DNA from: a virus
Reading direction: 5' to 3' (one strand)
Length of the DNA: 54,314 bases
IMG/VR virus record: IMGVR_UViG_3300002145_000153
Span: 1 to 54,314 of that record
Shown here: positions 6,434-15,576 of the stretch, piece by piece
How positions within the stretch are numbered: the stretch's first letter is position 1
How the letters are laid out: the number at the start of each line of letters is the position of its first letter
Notes under the pieces: model-generated
Told to the model about the DNA's origin: nothing
What the model saw: the letters and a program-made list of their open reading frames with translations, nothing else
Databases searched by the model: none
Made by a program: the position numbers and the translations under genes

Positions 6434-6482
6434 TGTGTAGAAAAATAGATTTCTACACATAACCTATAGGAGTTATAGGAAC
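6434..6482 (+). promoter_or_regulatory. Structured leader of nadM: two hairpins, ribosome-binding site in the second loop
   Basis: Hairpin 1 is a perfect 10-bp stem (6434-6443 / 6450-6459) with loop AATAGA. Then come AACC and hairpin 2, CCTATA (6463-6468) paired with TATAGG (6474-6479), whose loop GGAGT is the ribosome-binding site. The leader of nadV at 7553 has the same architecture and the same AATAGA loop. I infer a shared cis-regulatory RNA, possibly sensing NAD or a precursor. Confidence 0.55.
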
Positions 6483-7511
6483 ATGAAACAATACGACATT
6501 CTTGTCTACATCGGAAGATTTCAACCAGTTCATAATGCTCACGTTGAAATCATCAAACGAGCACATTCTCTTGCTGAAAAAGTAGTAATTATTGTTGGTA
6601 GTGGGTGGCAACCACCTACATACAAAAATCCATGGTCTTCTAAAGAACGGCATAAAATGCTTTTGGATGTGATCCATAAAGTAGCAGACCCTAAAACTGT
6701 TACTATAGAACATAATCACGACACAATTTATAATGACGAGGCATGGGCTATTCGAGTTCAAAATATCGTAAAACAATACGAACAACAATACTCGTATAAA
6801 CTAAAAATTGGTATCATCGGTCACGATAAAGATGAAAGTACATTTTATCTAAAAATGTTTCCTCAGTGGGAACGTGTAGAAGTTGATTTGATTGAACCGT
6901 TAAACGCAACTGATATTCGTGATTTGTACTTCCGTGATGGAATGAATCTCAAGTTTATCGATAGTGTAGTTCCTGATACTACTAAACAATTTTTAGAAGA
7001 CTACTCAAAAAGTTCAACATATAAGCAAATTATTGCTGAGAGAAAGTTTATTGAACAATACAAAAAGCAGTTTAGCGGACTAGCATATCCTCCAGTATTT
7101 GTGACGGTAGATGCAGTTGTTATTCAAGCTGGTCACGTATTGATGGTGAAAAGAAAATCAGAGCCAGGAAAAGGTCTTTGGGCACTTCCAGGTGGATTTC
7201 TCAATGCAGCAACAGATAAGTCCATACAGAATGCAATGATCAGAGAACTGAGAGAAGAAACAGGTATCAAAGTTCCTGCTCCAGTTCTTGTAGGTAATAT
7301 TAAAGATGTACGTGTTTTCGATGCTATTGGTCGTAGCACTCGTGGCAGAACTATTACTCATGCTTTCAAAATTCAATTGCCTGCTGGTGGTGATTTACCA
7401 AAAGTTAAGGGTTCTGATGATGCAGAGAAAGCAATGTGGATGTCAAACATAGATTCTAGTTTCTGCTACGAGGATCACTATGAAATTATTCAATGGGCAA
7501 TAGGTGGATAG
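6483..7511 (+). CDS. nadM: Bifunctional NMN adenylyltransferase / Nudix hydrolase
   Basis: The N-terminal domain has GRFQPVHNAH (residues 11-20), the nucleotidyltransferase HxGH-type site that joins NMN and ATP into NAD+. The C-terminal domain carries a Nudix box, with LPGGF near 235 and RELREETG at 254-261, and would hydrolyse ADP-ribose or related compounds. The glutamate before the RE part is not at the canonical spacing. The 342-aa length fits NadM-Nudix fusions of phages and bacteria. With nadV next door it completes a two-step nicotinamide salvage route. Confidence 0.92.
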   Translation: MKQYDILVYIGRFQPVHNAHVEIIKRAHSLAEKVVIIVGSGWQPPTYKNPWSSKERHKMLLDVIHKVADPKTVTIEHNHDTIYNDEAWAIRVQNIVKQYEQQYSYKLKIGIIGHDKDESTFYLKMFPQWERVEVDLIEPLNATDIRDLYFRDGMNLKFIDSVVPDTTKQFLEDYSKSSTYKQIIAERKFIEQYKKQFSGLAYPPVFVTVDAVVIQAGHVLMVKRKSEPGKGLWALPGGFLNAATDKSIQNAMIRELREETGIKVPAPVLVGNIKDVRVFDAIGRSTRGRTITHAFKIQLPAGGDLPKVKGSDDAEKAMWMSNIDSSFCYEDHYEIIQWAIGG

Positions 7512-7514
7512 GGC

Positions 7515-7543
7515 TTGACATTTAGTTATAGTTGTGTTATTTT
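7515..7543 (+). promoter_or_regulatory. Promoter of nadV
   Basis: TTGACA at 7515-7520, a 17-nt spacer and a weak TATTTT at 7538-7543. It lies at the end of nadM, so nadV has a start of its own with the leader at 7553-7594. Confidence 0.6.
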
Positions 7544-7552
7544 ATATAAAAT

Positions 7553-7594
7553 CCTAACAATAGAGTTAGGTAATTAACCGTAAAGGAGCTTTAC
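7553..7594 (+). promoter_or_regulatory. Structured leader of nadV: two hairpins, ribosome-binding site in the second loop
   Basis: CCTAAC (7553-7558) pairs with GTTAGG (7565-7570) around loop AATAGA. AACC follows at 7576-7579. Then GTAAAG (7580-7585) pairs with CTTTAC (7589-7594) around GAG, hiding the AAGGAG ribosome-binding site directly before the ATG. This repeats the design of the nadM leader with different stem sequences. Confidence 0.6.
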
Positions 7595-8977
7595 ATGTCA
7601 ATAATTCTCAATACAGATAGTTACAAACTTTCCATGTATACGCAGTATCCTCCTGGTACTGAACATGTCTTTAGTTACATTGAATCTCGTGGAGGTGAAT
7701 ATGATCGAACCGTATTCTTCGGTCTACAAGCATTTATTAAAGAATACCTGCTAAAACCTATCACTCAAGCTGATATTGATGAAGCAGAAGAAATTATCAC
7801 TGCTCATGGTGAACCTTTTAATCGTGAAGGATGGGAATACATTCTTAATACTCATGGTGGAAAACTTCCACTATTGATTAACGCTGTGCCTGAAGGTACT
7901 GTGGTTCCTGCAAAGAATCTACTTGCTTATGTCTTTAATACGGATAAAAAGTGTTACTGGCTAACTACACATATAGAAACTGCTCTACTACGTGCGATCT
8001 GGTACCCCACTACTGTTGCAACTAATAGTTGGACGAGTAAAAAGATTATTAAACATTATCTGGAGAAGAATGGTGATCCTACTCTTATTGGCTTTAAATT
8101 GCATGATTTTGGCGCTCGTGGGGTTTCTTCTATGGAAAGCGCAGGGATTGGAGGCGCAGCACATCTCGTCAATTTTATGGGTACAGACACGATATCGGGG
8201 ATCCTATTTGCTCGCAAGTATTATGGGGCTGGTGTTTCTGGATTTAGCATTCCTGCTATGGAGCATTCTACAGTAACTTCTTGGGGGCGTGAAAATGAGA
8301 TTGAAGCTTATCGAAATATGGTACGCCAGTATGGCAAACCTGGATCTTTGCTTGCATGTGTTAGTGACAGTTACGACATCTTTGCTGCTTGTCATAAGTG
8401 GGGCACTGAATTAAAACAAGAAGTAATCGATTCTGGTGCCACTGTTGTAATTCGTCCTGATTCTGGTGATCCTGCAATTGTAGTTCCAGAATGTGCAAGG
8501 ATTCTTGATAGTCACTTCGGTCACATTGTTAATAGTAAAGGATACCGTGTACTGAATAATGTTCGTATTATTCAAGGTGATGGCATCGACCACGAAACAA
8601 TTAGAAAGATTCTATATCAACTTGACATTGCTGGTTATAGCGCTGATAATGTTGCTTTCGGGCAGGGTGGTGCACTGTTGCAACAACTAAACCGTGACAC
8701 TTGTAAATTTGCTATGAAATGTTCAGCGATCTACATTAATGGTGAATGGCGTGATGTATATAAAGACCCCATTACTGACATTGGTAAACGTAGCAAACGA
8801 GGTCTTATTGATCTGTACTTCAATAACAAAACTGGATCATTTGAAACACATAGAATGGAAAGTGTAAAATATACAAATTGCGATCTTGAAGTTGCAACAA
8901 GAGGATATTTTCTTAACGGTGAACTAATTCGTGATGCACACTTTGATGAAATTCGTAAACTTGCGGATCGTTTTTAA
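7595..8977 (+). CDS. nadV: Nicotinamide phosphoribosyltransferase
   Basis: It makes nicotinamide mononucleotide from nicotinamide and PRPP, the first step of a salvage route finished by NadM. The start MSIILNTDSYKLSMYTQYPP, the GARGVSSMESAGIGG stretch (about residues 172-186) and the phosphoribosyl-binding RPDSGDP (about 287-293) are typical of NAMPT/NadV. At 460 aa it is close to full length. I recall NadV in T4-like phages such as Vibrio phage KVP40. Its stop codon overlaps the next gene's ATG. Confidence 0.95.
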   Translation: MSIILNTDSYKLSMYTQYPPGTEHVFSYIESRGGEYDRTVFFGLQAFIKEYLLKPITQADIDEAEEIITAHGEPFNREGWEYILNTHGGKLPLLINAVPEGTVVPAKNLLAYVFNTDKKCYWLTTHIETALLRAIWYPTTVATNSWTSKKIIKHYLEKNGDPTLIGFKLHDFGARGVSSMESAGIGGAAHLVNFMGTDTISGILFARKYYGAGVSGFSIPAMEHSTVTSWGRENEIEAYRNMVRQYGKPGSLLACVSDSYDIFAACHKWGTELKQEVIDSGATVVIRPDSGDPAIVVPECARILDSHFGHIVNSKGYRVLNNVRIIQGDGIDHETIRKILYQLDIAGYSADNVAFGQGGALLQQLNRDTCKFAMKCSAIYINGEWRDVYKDPITDIGKRSKRGLIDLYFNNKTGSFETHRMESVKYTNCDLEVATRGYFLNGELIRDAHFDEIRKLADRF

Positions 8978-10333: not shown

Positions 10334-11305
10334 ATGAAGCGTAAAACAATAGCATTTCTTTGTGGTATGATTTTTGTATCAAATGTATATTCTCAGCAAT
10401 CAAGTGCAGTGAAAATTGATGGAAGTTCAACTGTTTTTCCCATTACAGAAGGTATTGCTGAAGAATTTCAAAAGCAAAAAAAGACTAGAGTAACTGTTGG
10501 AATTTCTGGAACAGGTGGGGGTTTCAAAAAGTTTTGTCGCGGTGAAATTGATATTCAAAATGCAAGTAGACCCATTCAAAAATCAGAAATGGATTTATGT
10601 GAAAAATCTGGGATTAAGTACTATGAGTTACCTGTAGCTTTTGATGCTTTAACAGTCGTGATTAATCCTAAAAATAATTTTGCAGGTACACTAACTGTTG
10701 AACAACTAAAACGCATGTGGGAACCTGCTGCACAAGGAAAAATTACTAATTGGAACCAAATTGATGAAAAGTTTCCAAATATTAAATTGAGTTTATTTGG
10801 AGCAGGTACTGATAGTGGTACATTTGATTATTTTACAGAAGCAATTGTTGGCAAATCAAAATCAAGTAGAGGAGACTTTACTGCATCTGAAGATGACAAT
10901 GTACTAGTTCAGGGTGTAAGTAGAAATTCAAATGCAATTGGGTATTTTGGTTATGCTTATTATATTGAAAATGCAGATAAGCTAAAAGCAGTTGCAATTG
11001 TTAATGCCAAAGGGCAAGCTGTTTTGCCAAGTGGCAAAACAGTAATGGATGGTAGCTATAATCCTCTTTCACGACCAATTTTCATCTATGTTTCTGAAAA
11101 AAGTCTTGAGAAGAGTGAGGTTAAAAACTTTGTTGAGTTTTATATGAAAAATGCAACAAAGATTGTGAAGGAAGTAAAATATGTTCCTTTTTCTGAATCA
11201 GTGTATAAAGGAAATATGGATCTGATTTCTAAAAAGAAAACTGGAACAGCATTCAATGGTCACAATAAAGTTGGAATTACTGTTGACGAGATGATGAAAA
11301 GGTAA
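10334..11305 (+). CDS. pstS: PstS-like periplasmic phosphate-binding protein
   Basis: A signal peptide (basic MKRK, hydrophobic core, cleavage near VYS-QQ at residue 21) sends it to the periplasm. The mature start has DGSSTVFPI and ISGTGGGFKKF, the phosphate-contact loops of PstS, and a GAGTDSGTFDYF loop near residue 155. It would bind phosphate for the host Pst ABC transporter, presumably to help under phosphate limitation. I recall pstS in marine T4-like phages. No pho box is evident upstream; the start follows a GGTG ribosome-binding site just after RNA element E. Confidence 0.92.
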   Translation: MKRKTIAFLCGMIFVSNVYSQQSSAVKIDGSSTVFPITEGIAEEFQKQKKTRVTVGISGTGGGFKKFCRGEIDIQNASRPIQKSEMDLCEKSGIKYYELPVAFDALTVVINPKNNFAGTLTVEQLKRMWEPAAQGKITNWNQIDEKFPNIKLSLFGAGTDSGTFDYFTEAIVGKSKSSRGDFTASEDDNVLVQGVSRNSNAIGYFGYAYYIENADKLKAVAIVNAKGQAVLPSGKTVMDGSYNPLSRPIFIYVSEKSLEKSEVKNFVEFYMKNATKIVKEVKYVPFSESVYKGNMDLISKKKTGTAFNGHNKVGITVDEMMKR

Positions 11306-13083: not shown

Positions 13084-15576
13084 ATGGAAACATTCTACAC
13101 TAATGTAGTTCAATACGGTAATAAAATTCTCTATCGAGGTATCGATAGAAATATGCCTACTCGTGGTCGAAAAGATTTCTCCCCCACTCTATTCATTAAG
13201 ACAAACAAGAAAACTAAGTATACTTCTTTGTTTGGTGATCATCTCGATTCTATGGAATTTGCAGACATCAATGAGGCAAAGGACTTCATTAAGCAATATT
13301 CTGGGGTAGATAATTTCAATATCTTTGGTAACACAAATTTTGCTTATCAATACATTACTGAAAAGTTTTCTGATGATATTGCATTCGATATCTCCAAGAT
13401 TAATATTCAAACAATCGATATTGAGACAACTTCAGAGAATGGATTTCCTAATGTGAATAATCCTATCGAGGAGATTCTTCTAATCACATTGCAGAATGCT
13501 GATACAAAAGAACTCATTACCTTCGGTACACAATCATATAAAGCAAAGAAAAAGAATCACACTTACATTACATGTTCTAGTGAAAAAGATCTGTACTTCA
13601 GATTTTTAAACTATTGGCAAGAAAACTATCCAGATGTTATCACTGGATGGAATTGCGACACTTTCGATATTCCATATATGGTTAATCGTATTAAAAGAGT
13701 TATGGGTGAGGAAACTGTAAAGAAGCTTTCACCATGGAATATCATCAAAGATAAATCATTCAATCGAAATGGTAAAGAAGTTACATCATTTGAACTAGTT
13801 GGTATTGCCACACTAGATTATCTAGATCTTTACAAGAAGTTTACCTATACGACAAGAGAATCATACAAGTTAGATTATATTGCTAAGGTTGAATTGGGTA
13901 AACAGAAGTTAGAGAATCCTTATGAATCTTTTCGTGACTTTTATACTAAGGGTTGGGAACTTTTTGTTGACTATAACGTAGTAGACGTTGAACTAGTAGA
14001 TGAGTTAGAAGATAGAATGAAACTCATTGAACTGATTATTACTATGGCATATGATGCTAAGTGTAACTTTGTAGATGTTTTCTCTGCGGTGCGAACCTGG
14101 GACTGTATTCTATTCAATCATTTTTGGAAGAAGAATATCGTAGTTCATCAGCGAGATACCACAAGAACAGGTCGGCAGATTGTGGGTGCGTATGTTCAGG
14201 AACCAGTACCAGGAAAGTATGATTGGGTTGTTTCATTTGATGCTACATCATTGTATCCATCTATCATCATGCAGTATAATATGTCTACAGAGACAATTGT
14301 AGAAAATGATGCGAAAGATGTCACCGTAGATGGATTGCTAGAGAAAAAGTATGATACTACAGATCTGATCAATAAAAATTATTGTATGGCAGCGAATGGG
14401 CATATGTTTCGCCGCAACAAACAAGGTTTAATGCCTGAGATTGTTCAAAAGTTATTCGATGATCGACAGAAGTACAAAAAACTAATGCTTACAGCACAGC
14501 AAAAGTATGAAGAATCTAAGGATAAAAAGTATCAGAAAGAGATTGCTAAGTACAATAATTTTCAGATGGCAAGAAAGATTCAACTAAATTCTCTCTTCGG
14601 AGCCTGGGCAAATGAATGGTTCCGTATGTACGATGATAGAATTGCTGAAGGTATTACTATCACTGGTCAGTACATTATTCGTACTGTAGGTGAAGCATTG
14701 AATGTATATCTAAACAAAGTGTGCGGTACAAAGAACTTTAACTATTCATTTTACTCTGATACGGATAGCTGCTATATTACATTAGATCCTCTAGTGCAGA
14801 AGTTTTTCAAAAATCTAAGTAAGGAAAAGATTATTGATGCTCTAGATAAAATTTGTGAAGATAAAATTGTTAAGGCTATCAATGCTGCATGTGTAAAGTT
14901 ATTTGACTACACCAATGGTTTTGATCAGAAGATTTACTTCAAGCGCGAGGCGATCAGTGATCGAGGCATTTGGGTAGCAAAGAAACGCTATGCACTTAAT
15001 GTCTACGACAATGAAGGTGTTAGGTATGCTGAACCTAAGTTAAAAGTAATGGGGTTGGAAATCGTTCGATCATCCACGCCAGAGCCCATTCGCAATGCTT
15101 TAAAAGAAGCAGTCAAAATTGCTCTGACTAAATCAGAAAATGATCTACAATCTTTTATTGAACAATCAGAGCAAGAATTCAGAAAGATGCCCGCTGAACA
15201 GATAGCATTTCCTCGAGGTGTCAATGGAGTAGAAAAGTATAGTTGTCCAAATAACATCTACAAATCAGCAACACCAATGCATGTTAGAGGATCTTTGCTG
15301 TATAATAACTTCATCAAAGTAAATAAATTAGAAAAGAAATATGAGGAGATTCAGGAAGGTGATAAGATTAAGTTCATATATCTTAAAGAGCCTAATCCTC
15401 TAGGTGAAAACTGTATTGCCTTTATGTCTAAGATTCCTGAAGAAATGGCATTGAATAATTTTATAGATTATGATACAATGTATCAGAAGGCATTCATCGA
15501 ACCCATAACAACTATTCTAAATGGTGTTGGTTGGTCAGCAAGACCCCAAGCATCTTTAGAATCACTATTTGCATAG
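13084..15576 (+). CDS. 43: DNA polymerase, family B (T4 gp43-like)
   Basis: The replicative polymerase, 830 aa against about 900 for T4 gp43. The 3'-5' exonuclease site shows DIET at residues 112-115 and a DIPYM motif further on. The polymerase site shows DATSLYPSII starting at residue 386, KIQLNSLFGAW, and YSDTDS with D559 and D561. All catalytic acids are present, so it should be active and proofreading. UvsX and the gp41 helicase follow directly. Confidence 0.97.
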   Translation: METFYTNVVQYGNKILYRGIDRNMPTRGRKDFSPTLFIKTNKKTKYTSLFGDHLDSMEFADINEAKDFIKQYSGVDNFNIFGNTNFAYQYITEKFSDDIAFDISKINIQTIDIETTSENGFPNVNNPIEEILLITLQNADTKELITFGTQSYKAKKKNHTYITCSSEKDLYFRFLNYWQENYPDVITGWNCDTFDIPYMVNRIKRVMGEETVKKLSPWNIIKDKSFNRNGKEVTSFELVGIATLDYLDLYKKFTYTTRESYKLDYIAKVELGKQKLENPYESFRDFYTKGWELFVDYNVVDVELVDELEDRMKLIELIITMAYDAKCNFVDVFSAVRTWDCILFNHFWKKNIVVHQRDTTRTGRQIVGAYVQEPVPGKYDWVVSFDATSLYPSIIMQYNMSTETIVENDAKDVTVDGLLEKKYDTTDLINKNYCMAANGHMFRRNKQGLMPEIVQKLFDDRQKYKKLMLTAQQKYEESKDKKYQKEIAKYNNFQMARKIQLNSLFGAWANEWFRMYDDRIAEGITITGQYIIRTVGEALNVYLNKVCGTKNFNYSFYSDTDSCYITLDPLVQKFFKNLSKEKIIDALDKICEDKIVKAINAACVKLFDYTNGFDQKIYFKREAISDRGIWVAKKRYALNVYDNEGVRYAEPKLKVMGLEIVRSSTPEPIRNALKEAVKIALTKSENDLQSFIEQSEQEFRKMPAEQIAFPRGVNGVEKYSCPNNIYKSATPMHVRGSLLYNNFIKVNKLEKKYEEIQEGDKIKFIYLKEPNPLGENCIAFMSKIPEEMALNNFIDYDTMYQKAFIEPITTILNGVGWSARPQASLESLFA

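Follow-up and report, generated by a model that had tools for sequence, protein, structure and literature searches.

A two-hairpin leader RNA before the NAD-salvage genes nadM and nadV of phages and bacteria, a candidate translational operator

The phage record studied here (hereafter the window, meaning the whole stretch of DNA analysed) is tRNA-rich and 54,314 bases long. Its genes nadM and nadV are adjacent, and the initial annotation proposed that both are preceded by the same leader RNA, in which two hairpins precede the start codon and the second masks the ribosome-binding site. This raises the question of whether two genes of one pathway share a regulatory element, how widely that element is kept, and what would read it.

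Anatomy of the two leaders

The features of the locus are as follows.

6434..6459, + strand: hairpin 1 (H1) of the nadM leader, read from the sequence; 10 bp stem, loop AAUAGA at 6444-6449
6463..6479, + strand: hairpin 2 (H2) of the nadM leader; stem CCTATA/TATAGG around GGAGT, with the Shine-Dalgarno sequence GGAG in the loop
6483..7511, + strand: nadM, bifunctional NMN adenylyltransferase / Nudix hydrolase, 342 aa (Pfam CTP_transf_like and NUDIX)
7515..7543, + strand: promoter-like sequence TTGACA-17-TATTTT just 5ʹ of the nadV leader (weak evidence)
7553..7570, + strand: H1 of the nadV leader, read from the sequence; 6 bp stem, loop AAUAGA at 7559-7564
7571..7579, + strand: linker of the nadV leader, UAAUUAACC; linkers are variable and G-poor in relatives
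7580..7594, + strand: H2 of the nadV leader; stem GTAAAG/CTTTAC around GAG, ending at the ATG (7595)
7595..8977, + strand: nadV, nicotinamide phosphoribosyltransferase, 460 aa (Pfam NAPRTase and NAMPT_N)

The shared design was present as first described: the loop AAUAGA is common to both copies of H1, and their stems are unrelated. Folding gave -10.6 kcal/mol (z -5.4) for H1 of nadM and -5.9 kcal/mol (z -4.1) for H1 of nadV, and the z-scores of the whole leaders were -5.3 and -2.3, respectively. The nadM ATG at 6483 lies 3 nt past the H2 stem. In the nadV leader, half of the Shine-Dalgarno sequence AAGGAG is in the H2 loop and half is paired. The ribosome-binding site is thus partly masked, which the relatives strongly support; the H2 hairpins (-5.0 kcal/mol for nadM and -2.0 kcal/mol for nadV) are by themselves too weak for a firm lock. 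A further detail of the initial annotation, AACC as a fixed element shared by the two leaders, did not hold: it is not kept in relatives, and the CC of the nadM copy belongs to the H2 stem.

The arrangement is rare within the window. When both strands of the 54-kb sequence were scanned for a paired ANRGA loop with a paired GGA loop no more than 45 nt further on, only these two leaders were found, against a mean of 0.08 such sites in block shuffles. A covariance model built from relatives likewise matched two sites only, 6435-6480 and 7551-7596, with E-values, which are approximate, of 4e-4 and 0.007. Promoter-like sites of the kind listed above were as many in the region as expected from shuffled sequence. 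Elsewhere in the window, positions 10334-11302 encode a phage-carried substrate-binding protein (PBP_like_2) that looks PstS-like by eye.

Conservation, distribution and gene specificity

Relatives of nadV and nadM were collected from IMG/VR, and the design was found at nearly every one checked. In most of them the H1 loop was GAUAGAC and a short linker led to an H2 around GGAG, and their stems were unlike in nearly every case. Covariance models made from 10 leaders (R1) and 78 leaders (R2) were used for further searching; the records found are mostly fragments. In 63 distinct leaders, 92.2% of base-pair cells were paired, double changes were found in 333 cells (102 in shuffles), and covariation scored 0.85, with slid controls reaching 0.11 at most. 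The values for 126 distinct leaders from profile searches, on contigs mostly outside the building of R1 and R2 and with a few contigs common to both sets, were 91.7%, 641 against 201, and 0.82 against at most 0.12. These alignments were fitted to the model and are biased toward it, and stems called by plain scripts agree with them. The H2 stems of both nadM and nadV covary in relatives, which bears out the earlier remark that the stem had changed while its pairing was kept.

The family has a constant loop on variable stems, with up to six pair types per stem position. H1 has a stem of 3-11 bp of free sequence, often with A-A mismatches 3-4 bp under the loop, and a closing pair that is mostly G-C (118/126). 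Its loop is AUAGA in 124 of 131 leaders, with AAAGA, ACAGA and AAUAGA as variants; AUGGA and ACGGA (both rare), AGAGA and AGUGA were seen outside that set, so that the loop rule is about A-N-R-G-A. The linker is 6-14 nt by the model and consists of A, U or C at 95% and G at 5%; H1 lies between a few nt and approximately 18 nt upstream of H2. In H2, the inner pairs beside the Shine-Dalgarno site are mostly A-U, as in AAG-GAG-UUU, the loops are GGAGU, GGAUU, GGAAC and the like, and the outer pairs are free and covarying. Neither a third helix nor, across the family, recurrent pairing between strands of H1 and H2 was found, except in Methylococcales, where the two stems are complementary to each other. 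The family therefore has no built-in alternative fold. A seeming second class of H1 in one nadV clade, CAGGTGTC(ATGCC)GATGCCTG, was rejected, as it is really the 3ʹ end of the nadM coding sequence.

Among the named phages, of which fewer than 30 regions were examined, the AUAGA form precedes nadM and nadV in Synechococcus phage B23 and Xanthomonas phage LucasX. The same two-hairpin design occurs with GNUGUA or GUGGA loop types in Eneladusvirus, K64-1 and Hallingskeid, and with the loops AAAGA, GGGGU and CAAGAG in BUCT-ZZ01, Ochrobactrum phage OC and BcepSaruman, respectively. The nadM genes of the T4-like phages RB43 and KP15 have H2 without H1. Both hairpins were absent from all seven checked nadV genes that adjoin a Prs-like gene and have no nadM near (Felixounavirus, ICP1, Staphylococcus 676Z, Listeria P61, Pakpunavirus, Mycobacterium Thibault and ctSlx955). 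These nadV and Prs-like pairs resemble the Adps-Namat route, in which NAD+ is made without NMN (PMC12774641). On the 25 nadV contigs tested for it, nadM was also present in every case.

The element was also found in bacteria. It precedes nadM in ten assemblies of Methylococcales or related bacteria and in Kordiimonas, the isolate DSM 19435 of the latter included; the chromosomal nadM-nadV genes of Methylococcales and Kordiimonas have the same leader design, and the contexts of the bacterial carriers look like chromosomal ones. A nadM of this type is sporadic, being present in 6 of 81 genomes in the order of one carrier (G077) and in 7 of 289 in the class of another (G084).

Since most loci had been fetched via nadM or nadV, the specificity for these genes was tested in three ways. 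When 35 virus records were scanned whole, 45 matches were obtained, mostly one to three per record even at 250-380 kb, and each distant match that was inspected fell at a nadV remote from the nadM of its record (G018, G016, G024, G013 and G033); R2 gave 49 matches in 29 records. A gene-agnostic pattern scan of all IMG/VR contigs returned well-formed instances before nadM or nadV, and two before an ORF of 108 aa. Matches of that scan before a 470-aa family, terminase-like by eye, were dismissed as chance within one coding sequence, with four contiguous H1 pairs only. In a control comparison, Shine-Dalgarno hairpins of at least 6 bp were present at 74% of labelled nad genes and at 8% of other genes of the same loci, several of which match nadM in length and place and had missed the label. 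In the third test, 243 model matches, in which some contigs are counted twice, comprised 109 before nadM, 108 before nadV and 26 before other ORFs. One of these other ORFs is a phage-encoded quinolinate synthase NadA (Pfam E 1e-83) with a well-formed leader at L206:1362-1409; the others include several small unnamed families (phrog_12218, phrog_33851 and others) and phrog_1843. We regard the two-hairpin structure and its specificity for NAD genes as solid.

Several neighbours of the element were recorded on the way. The leader is borne by phrog_12218, a 108-aa protein with the motif HTDGCGWFYE, near nadM (L030:2229, L163:1922, L248:1099, L004:4551 and L500), and the role of this protein is probably NAD-related. 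Two more small unnamed families beside NAD genes are preceded by the leader, one at L030:2622, L074:2592, L151:2126 and L211:2017, and the other at L032:2646, L232:3819, L301:73 and L197:2149. A phrog_1843 protein of 215 aa, oxygenase-like by eye, has a well-formed leader as well (L218:1827). At L033:4018-4066, a high-scoring leader is followed by an ORF of five codons (MSINK), where the gene is possibly broken or mis-assembled. A GOLLD RNA (E 2e-57) lies close to nadM in a 350-kb phage (L058:5237-5648). In Xanthomonas phage X1 (L115, 1-586), a gene annotated as NAD(+) synthase lies in the neighbourhood of nadM and nadV, which suggests a longer NAD pathway in this phage.

What reads the loop

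The loops of the two genes change together. Automatic calling put the nadM and nadV leaders of one genome into one loop class in 78 of 80 cases; the two that disagreed (L132 and L278) proved on inspection to be misreadings. At least three independent joint switches from ANRGA to GNRGU or GNUGUA, affecting both genes, were placed on both protein trees: in the Eneladusvirus/K64-1 group, in Ochrobactrum phage OC, and in Caulobacterales/Hellea bacteria. Copying of one leader over the other is unlikely because the stems differ. A protein reader that co-evolves with its site would be expected to produce such joint changes in a short loop, which would be unusual in an aptamer whose metabolite is fixed; the pattern thus favours a protein. 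The trees do not single out either enzyme. A first count of 4 loop-type changes on the NadM tree against 9 on the NadV tree, for which labels had been taken partly from nadM leaders, was dropped after a fair subset gave 3 changes on each.

Taken together, the covarying hairpins, their specificity for NAD genes and the joint loop types lead us to infer a conserved translational operator for NAD salvage, by which nadM and nadV would be controlled together. In this model, at roughly even odds (about 0.5), a protein encoded by the carrier genome reads H1 and holds the ribosome-site hairpin shut. H1 would be the recognition part, with a stem of free sequence that presents a specific loop of 5-6 nt (for most lineages, ANRGA), and H2 would be the small weak hairpin around the Shine-Dalgarno site, ending at the start codon. 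The trans-acting RNA-binding protein, most likely from the carrier genome, would bind H1 and probably H2 too, block ribosome entry on nadM and nadV at once, and so provide feedback on NAD synthesis. NadM and NadV are the first candidates for the reader because no other gene was seen to carry the element in phages as well as in bacteria. NadM might exert autogenous control, perhaps with its active sites as sensors of NMN, NAD+ or ADP-ribose, or NadV may be the reader in its place. The fuller version, in which NadM has a second role as an RNA-binding repressor, responds to the NAD pool and closes both its own mRNA and that of nadV through a co-evolving loop code, is speculative and, judged from sequence, rather unlikely.

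A protein reader agrees with the anatomy: conservation is strongest in the short H1 loop, and, as in a protein operator, this conserved loop sits on a freely varying stem near the ribosome site. The absence of the element from the seven nadV genes beside Prs-like genes also speaks for an operator. Against it stand RB43 and KP15, with H2 without H1, and the number of joint loop-change events, which are only three. A host protein may instead be the reader, since the G-type loops were seen mostly in alphaproteobacteria or their phages. We considered phrog_12218, a common small ORF beside the cluster, as a universal reader and rejected it, as it is found in only 3 of 30 genomes.

The initial annotation had left the choice between a ligand- and a protein-controlled switch open, with NAD+ or NMN as ligands. 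The link of the leader to NAD genes is real, and its features speak more for an operator read by a protein than for an aptamer of a metabolite. In a metabolite riboswitch of a new class, the H1 loop, perhaps with H2, would bind NAD+, NMN, nicotinamide or ADP-ribose, stabilise H2 and close the ribosome site. The gene set, nearly pure NAD biosynthesis (nadM, nadV and one nadA), the occurrence in phages and bacteria alike, and the precedent of guanidine-II, which also has two hairpins, short conserved loops and a variable spacer (PMC5486947), would suit it. The conserved part is, however, only one loop of 5-6 nt and the Shine-Dalgarno site, there is neither a third helix nor a recurrent alternative pairing between the hairpins, and the linker is free. 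The joint change to GNRGU or GNUGUA loops in both genes of a genome is hard to match with a fixed ligand, and the element is missing where nadV adjoins a Prs-like gene, though a pathway of this sort also yields NAD+. We therefore consider a riboswitch somewhat unlikely and favour the protein-read operator over it.

Fixed expression without any switch, in which H1 guards the 5ʹ end of the transcript and H2 sets a constant level of translation, would explain the weakness of H2, and several nadV leaders lie closely 3ʹ of promoter-like sequence by eye, which places H1 at the 5ʹ end. This is nevertheless improbable, because a fixed loop that sits on freely varying stems, is nearly confined to the leaders of NAD genes and changes jointly needs something that recognises it; moreover, Shine-Dalgarno hairpins are rare at the other genes of the same loci. 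A host dimer of the CsrA/RsmA type bridging the H1 loop and the Shine-Dalgarno hairpin is quite improbable. The layout is that of a CsrA-repressed leader, with an upstream hairpin-loop site and a Shine-Dalgarno site bridged over 10-63 nt (PMC7652899), H2 contains AAGGA, and the distance from the end of the H1 loop to GGA, mostly 18-29 nt, is within reach. GGA was, however, 100% conserved in selected CsrA sites (PMC7652899), yet AUAGA is the prevailing H1 loop, and no match to the family exceeded the cut-off in 27 phage genomes of the set. It is very improbable that H1 is a transcription terminator or attenuator: both copies were flagged as terminator-like, on the minus strand, but such flags were near the shuffled expectation (2 against 1.2), the coding strand has no U-tract after H1, and the conserved loop would be left unexplained.

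Comparison with known systems

NAD depletion is a main bacterial defence against phages, and some phages restore NAD (PMC12774641). A widespread RNA element with joint control over nadM and nadV would add a regulatory layer to NAD salvage in phages and give cells and viruses a new means of sensing their NAD status. Where it precedes small unnamed genes, of which there are several, it predicts functions related to NAD.

No Rfam family matched the leader at any threshold used in a scan of the leader region with all of Rfam, in line with the earlier failure to place it among known NAD riboswitches. The comparison with the two NAD+ riboswitches, proposed at the outset as a check, showed that the element matches neither. 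NAD+-I (nadA motif, RF03013) is similar in being a leader of NAD biosynthesis genes, and its model exceeded the gathering score in none of eight genomes, namely the window record and seven other carriers. NAD+-II (pnuC motif) is similar in preceding an NAD-related gene and in acting on the ribosome site near the start codon. By its published description, it consists of P1, P1a and a possible pseudoknot using the ribosome site, lies upstream of pnuC in Streptococcus, and is conserved at most positions (PMC7749635); the present element differs in having two separate hairpins, free stems and other genes.

The guanidine-II (mini-ykkC) riboswitch resembles the element in that a variable spacer joins a pair of hairpins close to the ribosome site, each with a short conserved loop (PMC5486947). 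Both of its loops are ACGR and pair together, whereas the element has ANRGA in H1 and the Shine-Dalgarno sequence (GGAGN-like) in H2, and no complementarity between its H1 and H2 loops was seen. Operators of CsrA/RsmA, such as that of glgC, share the upstream hairpin-loop site and the Shine-Dalgarno site (PMC7652899), but most H1 loops lack their GGA core. No report of the element was found in the open-licence literature searched.

Within the window, the ribosome site of the gene for a family B DNA polymerase (from 13153; Pfam) is covered by a hairpin of 8 bp, UCUAUCGA/UCGAUAGA (13110-13170), which recalls the autogenous operator of T4/RB69 gp43. In the operators of gp43 and of the MS2 coat protein, a phage protein reads the ribosome-site hairpin of an mRNA through its loop. 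The element differs from these in being placed on two or more genes of one pathway, and its reader is here a candidate only. As a family of cis-regulatory RNA the element is new, and its general kind, translational control by ribosome-site hairpins, is known.
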